A stretch of DNA of 40,797 nt, taken from positions 1 to 40,797 of the IMG/VR virus record IMGVR_UViG_3300043398_000445; one strand, 5' to 3'. The notes beneath the pieces were generated by a model. The model made no database searches, had not been told where the DNA came from, and worked only from the letters and a program-made list of their open reading frames with translations. The stretch comes from a virus. Position 1 is the stretch's first letter. Each line of letters opens with the position of its first letter. A program made the position numbers and the translations under genes. Below, one piece after another: positions 128 to 8,405 of the stretch.

Positions 128-207
128 CAGGCGCCTTGCTCCTCCTGCAGCGCGTGTGCTTCCCAGTCTTCGAACTCGCTCTCGTTCGCAATACTGCGGT
201 CGGTCAT
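1..207 (-). CDS. Zinc-binding/coiled-coil small protein, 5' part (gene crosses the contig join)
   Basis: ATG at 207 overlaps the TGA of the HNH gene (ATGA). These 69 codons reach base 1 in frame and continue at 40670 for 42 more codons to a TGA at 40545, giving a 110-aa protein. The N-terminal part has a CNHGIAGPCPIC pattern that could bind zinc. It is followed by a charged Glu/Arg-rich helix (roughly residues 45-70) likely to form a coiled coil, then a C-terminal segment with LTGIGNVVLRW. I do not recognise the family. It sits between an HNH nuclease and a VRR-NUC-type nuclease, so a role in phage DNA metabolism is possible but inferred from position only. Confidence 0.8.
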   Translation of the reverse strand, partial: MTDRSIANESEFEDWEAHALQEEQGACNHGIAGPCPICRSDRRADIAERELRETAEELERVRVRLESER

Positions 208-497
208 GCTCCCTCCATCTCAGCCAAGCGGTCCCTCAGGCAGAGCGCGATGGCTCGCCAGAGGTCGTGTAGGGTGTCGCTTGGGCTGTTGGTTCCAATG
301 GTGCCGCGCTTGTGCAGCTCCCGGTGGTGGTCACGGCAGAGCGGCGCGGCCAGCAGATCGCACGGCTTGATGCCGATGCCTCCGCCACCAACGAGGCGCC
401 CCGTGTGATGCGCCTCCGCGGCAGGGTTGGCGCAGAACGCACAACGCCGACCCCGCACGAAGGCCAGGTGTTTCTTGGAGCGGTGGGGCGAGATCAT
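204..497 (-). CDS. Small HNH-type endonuclease
   Basis: A 97-aa protein. ATG at 497 overlaps the TGA of the nuclease-recombinase gene upstream (ATGA). Residues 19-22 form a CxxC (CAFC), followed by AHH at 29-31, another cysteine in PLC (about 54) and the block CRDHHRELH. This Cys/His layout is that of compact phage HNH proteins, in which the paired cysteines hold a structural zinc and the His residues form the active site that nicks DNA. Free-standing HNH proteins can be homing nucleases or assist packaging or recombination. Here its position directly behind a recombination gene, far from the terminase, favours a recombination or replication role; this is inference. Confidence 0.75.
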   Translation of the reverse strand: MISPHRSKKHLAFVRGRRCAFCANPAAEAHHTGRLVGGGGIGIKPCDLLAAPLCRDHHRELHKRGTIGTNSPSDTLHDLWRAIALCLRDRLAEMEGA

Positions 498-1984
498 GCC
501 GCGTCCATTTCCTCGGGCGCGTAGAGCCCCAGGACCGCCTTGGGGTAGACCAGCCGAGCGAGCTTGCTCCCAGCCGTCTTGACCAGCATGTCCTGGGGGC
601 GCTTGGCCCAGTTGCCCGTGTTGAGCCCCGCTTGCTTGGCCTGCTCGATGGTGTACGTGAACCGGGTGGGCTTGGGGTGCCTCTTGTGCTTGGTCTCCCA
701 CGTGGCCTTCTCGTTGTCGGCCTCGATGAGCATGAAGTACTCACAGTGCTCGTCTCGTTCGGCGAGCGACCGGATGAGGTCTGCGGAAGCCGTCGGTCGG
801 CCCTCGATGACGTGGAAGCCCATCAGCGAGGTGGTGACGCCGATGCCCAATTCGCGACCCCGGAGCATCACGGCAAAGACCGCTTCAGGGGTGGGGAACT
901 TGCCGAACATCCGCGAGTCGTAGAGCCACTTGCTCATGGCCTTCGCGCTCTCGAGGTCTTGGGGCTGGAGGCTCTCGTCCACGTGCCCGTACTTCACGAG
1001 ACCCGGCTTGGGCTCCGTCTGGTTGGCGGCCTTCTGGGGCGGCTCACTCTTCCGCATCACTGTCGGGGCGACGTAGCCCTCTGCCGCCTTGCTGATGGGC
1101 ACGAAGTCCGCTTCGCTCACCTCGGGGCTGTCATCGTTCACCATCTCGGCCATGTCTCCCACGTCGTCATCCTTTCCGTCGGTCTGCAGGAGCGCCTCCA
1201 GGTCCAGGGGCACATCCGTCACGAGCCTCACCAGGTCCGCCGAGAGCCTCAGTTGGTCCCAGTGGTCGGCGAGGGTCTTCCACATCGTCTTCTGCGCGGC
1301 GGTCTCCCCTTCGCTGGGGCCGGCGGCCAGCGCCTCTGCGATGCCCGTGAGCGAGCCACAGTCGTGGATGAGGGCGGCCGCCTTCTTCGGGCCGATGCCG
1401 GGAACGCCGGGGATGTTGTCGCCCTTGTCGCCGGTGAGCGCGAGAAAGAGCGGCATGTCCTTCGGCTCGACGCCGTACTTCGCCTTGATCTCGGCGGGTC
1501 CTCGGATCTCCCCCGGGCGATCACCCACGCGGGGAACGAACATCCGCACGGTGTCAGAGACCAGGCAGGCGAGATCCTTGTCGCTGGCGATGATTCGCAC
1601 GTCGGGGCACCAGAGACCCACGGAGAGAGCGAGCGTCGCGATGACGTCGTCCGCCTCGTAGCCCTTCACCCGCGCGATGCGGTAGCCGTACGCGGTGAGC
1701 TTCTCCAGGGTCCAGCGCTTCTGCGCGGTCTCCTCTGCCTCGGGCTTCTCCCGGTGAGCCTTGTACTCGGCGTAGAGCTGCTGGCGATGGTACGGAGGCG
1801 CGTCGCAACAGACGATGAGGTGGTCCACGTCGCCGCGGACTCCCTCGATCTGATCCAGGGTTTCCTGAGCGGCATCACCGGGCTTCGCGTCCCTCGGGGC
1901 TCCGGCGTAGTTCTTCTTGAAGAGGTAGGACAGGTCGACCAACGCGACCGACTGGATGCTCCCCGGAATCTGCTCTGCTGCCAT
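494..1984 (-). CDS. Fused FEN-type 5'-3' nuclease and RecT-like single-strand annealing protein
   Basis: A 496-aa protein. Residues 1-260 are a complete flap/5'-3' exonuclease domain: VDLSYLF with Asp17, CCDAPPYHRQ with Asp61, GYEADD with Glu110, Asp112 and Asp113, ASDKDL with Asp135 and Asp137, LTGDKGDN with Asp186 and Asp189, then the H3TH DNA-binding loop IPGVPGIGPKKA. No DNA polymerase domain follows. Residues 265-335 are an acidic, disordered-looking linker. Residues 340-496 match the RecT-like annealing proteins of many phages: FPTPEAVFAVMLRGRELG, then MGFHVIEGRPTASADL, NWAKRPQDML and LARLVYPKAVLGLY. Established knowledge: such systems use a 5'-3' exonuclease to make 3' tails and an annealing protein to pair them, normally as two proteins. 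Here both lie in one chain. A GGGAGGA ribosome site lies about 12 bases before the ATG. About 100 bases upstream hold no gene, so a separate promoter is possible. Confidence 0.88.
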   Translation of the reverse strand: MAAEQIPGSIQSVALVDLSYLFKKNYAGAPRDAKPGDAAQETLDQIEGVRGDVDHLIVCCDAPPYHRQQLYAEYKAHREKPEAEETAQKRWTLEKLTAYGYRIARVKGYEADDVIATLALSVGLWCPDVRIIASDKDLACLVSDTVRMFVPRVGDRPGEIRGPAEIKAKYGVEPKDMPLFLALTGDKGDNIPGVPGIGPKKAAALIHDCGSLTGIAEALAAGPSEGETAAQKTMWKTLADHWDQLRLSADLVRLVTDVPLDLEALLQTDGKDDDVGDMAEMVNDDSPEVSEADFVPISKAAEGYVAPTVMRKSEPPQKAANQTEPKPGLVKYGHVDESLQPQDLESAKAMSKWLYDSRMFGKFPTPEAVFAVMLRGRELGIGVTTSLMGFHVIEGRPTASADLIRSLAERDEHCEYFMLIEADNEKATWETKHKRHPKPTRFTYTIEQAKQAGLNTGNWAKRPQDMLVKTAGSKLARLVYPKAVLGLYAPEEMDAA

Positions 1985-7463: not shown

Positions 7464-7567
7464 GTATTCACCCACCAGCTGACCGCCACCCCGGCGAGGG
7501 CGAGGCCGAGGAGGAGGGTGATGGCAAAGCAGGTGGCGAGATCGGTGCGGGTGGAGTGGGTCTTCAA
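7460..7567 (-). CDS. Small membrane protein, 35 aa
   Basis: TTG at 7567 overlaps the stop of the J-domain gene (TTGA). After a short hydrophilic start (MKTHSTRTDLA) there is one clear membrane segment, CFAITLLLGLALAGVAVSWW, ending three residues later. It is too far from the lysis cassette to be the main holin. A role in superinfection exclusion or membrane modulation is possible but unsupported. The TTG start lowers certainty, but the overlaps at both ends favour a real gene. Confidence 0.5.
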   Translation of the reverse strand: MKTHSTRTDLATCFAITLLLGLALAGVAVSWWVNT

Positions 7568-8145
7568 TTGGCCCCCAACGCTTCGTGATAGGCCTGGGTC
7601 AGTCGGGCGAAAGCTGCCGCGTCGCCGCCCTGGTCGGGATGCGAGTTCCGTGACAGCGCCCGGAACCGGCTCACCACCTCGTCGCGGCTCGCCCCGCGCG
7701 CCAGCCCTAGGATGTCCCAGCAGCTCTGCGCGGCGGGCAGACGAGCGAACCCCTGGAACGCCCGTTCGAGTAGCTCACTCGCGCCGGTCCGCTCCAGCTG
7801 CCGCAACGAGGCGTAGGCGAGACCGACAGCACGGAGGTTCTCCCGCACGGTGCGCCACACGTCGCAGGCGATGACCCGGGGCTTGCCAGCCTTGTCGTCC
7901 CAGTAGACGGCGACGCCGGGGTCCTCGGGCTCGCGCATGTTGGCGAGCGGCAGCCCGTCCCTGCGAAGCGGGACATTGCTGGAGATCACGACGTGACGCG
8001 CGCGCCCCGCGGTCAACTCCCGCAGCAACTCGTCGCGCGCGCGAATGAAGGTCACCCGGTAGTCGCTGCCCTTGCGATCCTGCCTGCCCCGGCGTGGCCA
8101 CCCATCGGGCCAGCAGAGAGGAAACGCCTCGATCGCTGCGCTCAC
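7564..8145 (-). CDS. J-domain (DnaJ-like) protein
   Basis: A 193-aa protein; GTG at 8145 overlaps the upstream stop (GTGA). The last 55 residues form a J domain: CWDILGLARGASRDEVVSRFRALS, the diagnostic HPD loop (SHPDQGG), then AAFARLTQAYHEALG. The J domain lies at the C-terminus rather than the usual N-terminus. The first 130 residues are an unrecognised alpha/beta domain (ARHVVISSNVPLRRDGLP, DPGVAVYWDDKAGKPRVIACD) that could hold the client or partner. J proteins stimulate Hsp70 ATPase, and phages use host DnaK/DnaJ in replication-complex remodelling. Recruiting host DnaK to the phage replisome is a reasonable inference from the neighbourhood. Confidence 0.85.
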   Translation of the reverse strand: MSAAIEAFPLCWPDGWPRRGRQDRKGSDYRVTFIRARDELLRELTAGRARHVVISSNVPLRRDGLPLANMREPEDPGVAVYWDDKAGKPRVIACDVWRTVRENLRAVGLAYASLRQLERTGASELLERAFQGFARLPAAQSCWDILGLARGASRDEVVSRFRALSRNSHPDQGGDAAAFARLTQAYHEALGAN

Positions 8146-8405
8146 GCGCTCCTCCTCTCCGGCGCCCACGGCAGCCCGCACCCGGGGCACACGCGCTCCC
8201 GTCGCTCACTCAGGTCAAAGCAGACCTTGCACACGAGCCTCGCCGATCGGGGCTCGCTGTAGACGAGCCGGCGCTTGCCCGTGCTCCGGGTCTCTTGTCG
8301 GCTCAATCTCCTGCGCTCGACCATCAGCCGGCGCTTGCACTCGGGCAGCCTTCGGGCCACGGCGGACAGCACCTCGCCGCCGCAGCCGCATTCGCAGAGC
8401 TTCAC
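8142..8405 (-). CDS. Zinc-ribbon protein, 87 aa
   Basis: GTG at 8405 overlaps the preceding stop (GTGA). Two cysteine clusters are present: KLCECGCGG at the N-terminus and CKVC...CPGCG at the C-terminus, the latter a typical zinc ribbon. A very basic middle (KRRLMVERRRLSRQETR) suggests nucleic-acid binding. No specific family is recognised. Confidence 0.7.
   Translation of the reverse strand: MKLCECGCGGEVLSAVARRLPECKRRLMVERRRLSRQETRSTGKRRLVYSEPRSARLVCKVCFDLSERRERVCPGCGLPWAPERRSA

Follow-up and report, generated by a model that had tools for sequence, protein, structure and literature searches.

Exonuclease/annealing protein pairs of bacteriophages underlie recombineering, and the loading of the annealing protein by the exonuclease has been studied in systems with separate partners. 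The locus described here raises the question of whether both components can reside in a single polypeptide chain, and what such a protein would do for its phage. The window, meaning the whole stretch of DNA that was analysed, comprises 40,797 bases and is a virus record of IMG/VR; it carries integrase and terminase genes and therefore represents a temperate tailed phage or prophage. A megablast search of its first 20 kb against phage records gave no match. The sequence-only reading made earlier had proposed that one frame of this record joins a FEN-type nuclease to a RecT-like annealing domain, with the nuclease standing in for a separate lambda-exo or RecE partner.

Gene organization

A single uninterrupted open reading frame occupies positions 494 to 1984 on the minus strand, with the ATG at 1984 and the TGA at 494–496, and encodes a protein of 496 amino acids; a plus-strand reading of the same interval was rejected. 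Three successive sections can be distinguished within the product: a FEN domain (residues 11–265), a linker (residues 266–335) and a RecT/Redβ-type core (residues 336–496). The GC content at third codon positions is steady across all three segments (0.88–0.89), and the gene thus bears no signature of a frameshift join. The stop codon overlaps the ATG of a downstream HNH endonuclease gene (204–497, minus strand; PHROGs HNH endonuclease, E 1e-12). The RecT section lacks the usual C-terminal tail, and this overlap led to the rejection of truncation at a contig end as the cause.

The N-terminal nuclease domain

The N-terminal half (positions 1190–1954, minus strand) is assigned to the FEN/5'-3' exonuclease superfamily, with an intact acidic two-metal site. 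The assignment follows from profile searches, fold comparison and conservation. Pfam 5_3_exonuc_N was matched at residues 14–171 (E 9e-24, 84.4 bits against a cut-off of 34.3) and the 5_3_exonuc/H3TH profile at residues 172–263 (E 2.5e-22, 79.6 bits against a cut-off of 40); all 27 fused members matched both the resolvase-like and the H3TH profile. A PHROGs exonuclease family was matched at residues 13–235 (E 2e-27). Nine acidic residues (D17, D61, E110, D112, D113, D135, D137, D186 and D189) are invariant or near-invariant across 27 homologues, the one exception being a change of D112 to glutamate in contig L180. The acidic active site and H3TH loop recognized in the sequence-only reading are thereby borne out. 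Taq Pol I aligns with this half from D61 onward.

In the fold search, the best matches were ExoIX (Z 27.8), the Mycobacterium FEN (Z 26.3) and T5 FEN (Z 25.4), and the YKxxR arch segment of the FEN fold is conserved in the family. The N-terminal half thus shares its fold, H3TH element and acidic active site with T5 D15, ExoIX/Xni and the N-terminal domain of Pol I (Z 20–28); none of the phage and bacterial FEN matches examined, however, carries a RecT domain.

The C-terminal annealing domain

The C-terminal half (positions 497–979, minus strand) is predicted to form an annealing core of the RecT/Redβ family. In profile searches, which the sequence-only reading had recommended for both halves, it matched Pfam RecT at residues 444–493 (E 4e-7; score 30.2 bits, cut-off 24), and 23 of the 27 fused members matched the same profile at E 0.01 or better. 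Two PHROGs families of RecT-like ssDNA annealing proteins were found at residues 367–492 (E 4e-9) and 338–494 (E 1e-8). With the profile of the fused family, the lambda Redβ chain was recovered by sequence as well (E 3e-4). The lambda Bet equivalog TIGR01913 scored 23.5 bits, below its cut-off of 76.95, which places this half among the relatives of Bet and not among its orthologues.

Modelled separately, the RecT half reached a pLDDT of 92. The fold search ranked lambda Redβ first (7ujl, Z 8.8, 133 residues aligned) and LiRecT, from a Listeria phage, second (7ub2, Z 6.6, 134 residues aligned), ahead of RAD52, Sak and Mgm101; the Z scores are modest, and the top two represent the expected family. 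The chain ends just past a conserved PEE motif. After the RecT core, 28 fusions retain a median of 1 residue (range -3 to 10), versus a median of 124 residues in 84 stand-alone RecT frames. The tail of the stand-alone type is therefore absent, and is predicted to be dispensable for the annealing core itself.

The linker

Between the domains lies a linker (positions 980–1189, minus strand) that is acidic, as the earlier reading had noted; Asp and Glu make up 20% of its residues. Across the family, its length varies from 49 to 186 residues and its sequence is unconserved. An AlphaFold2 model of the full chain, built with 27 fused homologues, gave the picture of two confident domains with a disordered joint: the overall pLDDT was 86, values fell under 50 at residues 270–331, and at a pTM of 0.57 the mutual placement of the domains is not fixed.

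One short element recurs within this otherwise variable section. The segment SEADFVPIS (residues 290–298, positions 1091–1117, minus strand; family form TEAEFDPIS) contains the pattern [DE]A[DEAQ][FWY], present in 14 of 27 linkers against a mean of 0.9 in shuffled sequences (maximum 6 in 2000 shuffles). In the tails of stand-alone RecT proteins, the pattern occurs at chance level only. The acidic-aromatic motif is a possible docking peptide. The fused copy in contig L205 has a slightly longer C-terminus, ending in FEAEFEER, and its EAEF motif is located there instead of in the linker.

The linker also contains hypothetical internal starts, a GTG at residue 275 preceded by AAAGGA and an ATG at residue 281 (positions 1142–1162, minus strand). 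In the first 40 codons past the FEN domain, 17 of the 27 genes have an in-frame ATG or GTG accompanied by a stretch that resembles a Shine-Dalgarno sequence (dG of at most -5.4), versus a mean of 7.4 and a maximum of 13 in codon-shuffled linkers (400 shuffles). Compared with synonymous recoding, there was no enrichment (mean 14.7, P 0.12); the signal therefore resides in the residues themselves, Glu or Lys before Met, and does not amount to proof. Within the group L195–L200, the candidate start position switches between ATG and GTG. The signal is suggestive only. We consider it possible, though on balance doubtful, that ribosomes also initiate internally, from a binding site where the linker begins, and make the linker and RecT core alone, so that a few nuclease-bearing chains seed filaments made mostly of RecT-only subunits. 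Two overlapping products are known from T7 gene 4, and the likeness would lie in two products arising from one gene. If such a start is real, the fusion would be a read-through of an exo–recT pair in which the former recT start survives, and the mismatch of one nuclease to many annealing subunits would be solved.

Partner exonucleases and gene neighbourhood

The 25 fused records searched each contain exactly one 5_3_exonuc_N match, always within the fusion frame. YqaJ, PDDEXK_1 and DUF3799 were found in none of the 25, a count that covers these three families while others could be present, that comes from records mostly of unknown completeness, and that does not represent 25 independent events, as the fusions are related and perhaps of one origin. 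In records with a stand-alone RecT, by contrast, a FEN domain was found in 0/21 and YqaJ or PDDEXK_1 in 15/21 (Fisher p 1e-7 for the partner-exonuclease contrast); the remaining 6/21 likewise lack the tested exonucleases. Given the absence of these enzymes and of the RecT tail, the usual partner exonuclease appears to have been replaced by the FEN domain, and tail-mediated pairing by a covalent link. On this point, too, the earlier proposal agrees with the counts.

The nearest annotated stand-alone RecT relatives, from the Rhodococcus and Gordonia phages REQ3, GMA1, Adora and Wizard, adjoin RecE-like exonuclease genes, and HNH genes adjoin recT in several actinophages too. Genes for SSB, RusA-like and HNH proteins are frequent neighbours of the fusion genes, which places the latter in a recombination/replication setting; a putative replication gene in the same module is common to nine loci.

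Several further features of these neighbourhoods were observed. Near the fusion in L196 and L198–L202, a small gene resembles the RusA Holliday-junction resolvase (DDDN motif, judged by eye). An SSB gene is located downstream of the fusion in L195, L196, L198, L199, L201 and L202, its product ending in GDDIPF in L202. In another clade (L189, L191, L194 and L197), a small protein is encoded downstream, ending in DADSIPF in L197; an SSB-like acidic tip is thus present in two contexts downstream of fusions. Elsewhere in the window, positions 7564–8169 encode a 201-residue protein whose C-terminal part is a DnaJ domain (Pfam, E 1.6e-6) and which falls into a PHROG without assigned function (E 2e-45).

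Proposed function and alternatives

In this temperate tailed phage, the protein probably unites an exonuclease and an annealing protein in a single chain and does the work of lambda exo with Redβ or of RecE with RecT. The N-terminal FEN domain would bind a DNA 5' end and strip the 5' strand; the RecT core, held on its flexible tether, would bind the emerging 3' strand and anneal it to a complementary strand. The covalent tether would substitute for the C-terminal tail that docks the partner exonuclease in Redβ. Resection, strand hand-off and annealing, and with them a role in phage recombination or replication, are what we infer from the domain composition.

The main rival to this resection-coupled annealing is flap trimming, which we regard as unlikely. 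FEN enzymes cut flaps, and the flaps of Okazaki fragments and of recombination are processed by such enzymes. The RecT core would here anneal single-stranded DNA, for example in gaps at replication forks, and the FEN domain on its tether would cut the leftover 5' flaps arising from annealing or strand displacement, with end resection left to a host nuclease or unneeded. The FEN fold with its conserved YKxxR arch, the best fold matches to ExoIX and to bacterial and T5 flap endonucleases, and the position of the gene in a module with the putative replication gene of the nine loci are in keeping with flap trimming. It leaves unexplained, however, both the lack of the known partner exonucleases of RecT in 25/25 fused records and the loss of the RecT tail in the fusions.

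Much less probable is a protein in which the RecT half no longer anneals and serves as a mere ssDNA-binding or oligomerising anchor for a replication-type FEN engaged in primer removal. The shortness of this half (about 160 residues) and the restriction of the best Pfam RecT match to its last 50 residues would fit such a role, but a complete Redβ core fold is predicted (pLDDT 92; 133 residues aligned, Z 8.8), and by dN the RecT half is conserved as much as the FEN half, or more. That two genes were fused by a sequencing or assembly error has next to no probability, had nothing in its favour and was rejected: at least 30 separate diverged contigs bear the same one-frame fusion, in frames free of internal stops and with linkers of varying length, GC3 is continuous, and the fusion of both domains in one chain is confirmed as real. 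Neither outcome named beforehand as refuting the sequence-only reading occurred, since the C-terminal half does match annealing-protein profiles and folds and the homologues carry both halves in one frame; its core claim is supported, while the direct hand-off of the resected strand would be a further step.

Distribution and evolution of the family

Alignment-based scans recovered the one-frame fusion in at least 30 further IMG/VR contigs, the halves being joined and not split, at identities to the 496-residue protein down to about 30%; pattern scans of viral and genome contigs with the single protein, in contrast, had found no close relatives. The same fusion is present in contig L205 (QJWJ01000441.1) of a MAG labelled Deltaproteobacteria, where its 5' end is cut by the contig edge; six other genomes from the phylum of this MAG contain stand-alone RecT proteins with tails and no fusions. 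With four family members as queries, no fusion covering at least 80% of the query was found among 50,697 phage records, nor was one among plasmid records. L193, a candidate stand-alone gene within the fused clade, was rejected as such, because the contig stops within its frame.

In comparisons of related members, both domains give dN/dS values mostly well below 1, and the linker gives higher ones; the values are rough, several dS estimates being near saturation. In the RecT tree, a single branch separates the fusions from the other sequences (support 65/82), in an alignment that omits three cut or long rows; a quick tree including them required three changes. In a quick tree of the FEN half, one branch likewise sets the fusions apart (support 70). 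These topologies are compatible with a single origin of the fusion, without proving it.

The RecT halves of L195 and of L198/L199 are nearly identical (dN 0.03–0.05), whereas their FEN halves are strongly different (dN 0.48). The difference suggests an exchange of the nuclease module, in frame and near the linker.

Comparison with known recombination systems

As in lambda Red, a 5'-3' nuclease is coupled to a core of the RecT/Redβ fold, and the C-terminal half of the fusion matches the Redβ N-terminal domain (7ujl, Z 8.8). In lambda, however, the system is formed from two proteins, a trimeric PD-(D/E)XK exonuclease and a Redβ with a C-terminal docking domain; this domain, according to the title of one paper, reportedly contacts lambda exo. 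The fusion is instead one chain with a FEN nuclease and no tail. The Rac RecE/RecT and actinophage RecE-like/RecT pairs likewise combine a RecT-family annealing protein with a 5'-3' exonuclease, but are encoded by separate adjoining genes, with a RecE-like nuclease and a RecT of 280–340 residues that has a tail. Neither of the features that define Red and RecET, two separate interacting polypeptides and a PD-(D/E)XK (lambda-exo/RecE/Cas4-like) exonuclease, is found in the fusion.

In phage T7, gp6, a FEN-related 5'-3' exonuclease, works with the ssDNA-annealing protein gp2.5 in phage recombination. The T7 proteins differ from the fusion in being separate, and gp2.5 has an OB-fold and is not RecT-like.

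In a structure search, UniProt A0A6J5MUB0 of an uncultured Caudovirales phage matched almost the full length of the chain (E 1.8e-36, 492 alignment columns), although its annotation, 'PIN_53EXO domain containing protein', describes the nuclease half only. The entry evidently shares the FEN–RecT architecture, and the sequence type has thus already been deposited. The sequence-only reading knew of no described example; in agreement with this, no description of such a fusion was found in the open-access literature searched, which is part of the whole. The protein appears to be a compact and as yet undescribed kind of phage recombination machine, whose job resembles that of lambda Red and RecET while its composition does not.

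Significance

As a natural single-chain pair, the fusion would set a 1:1 linkage between nuclease and annealing subunit, and the hand-off would be testable by point mutants or linker changes within one protein. It could also serve as a one-gene recombineering tool. For the biology of these phages, it would mean that in a RecT system a FEN nuclease can stand where a PD-(D/E)XK partner is usual, and that the loss of the RecT tail may be tied to a lost need for partner docking.
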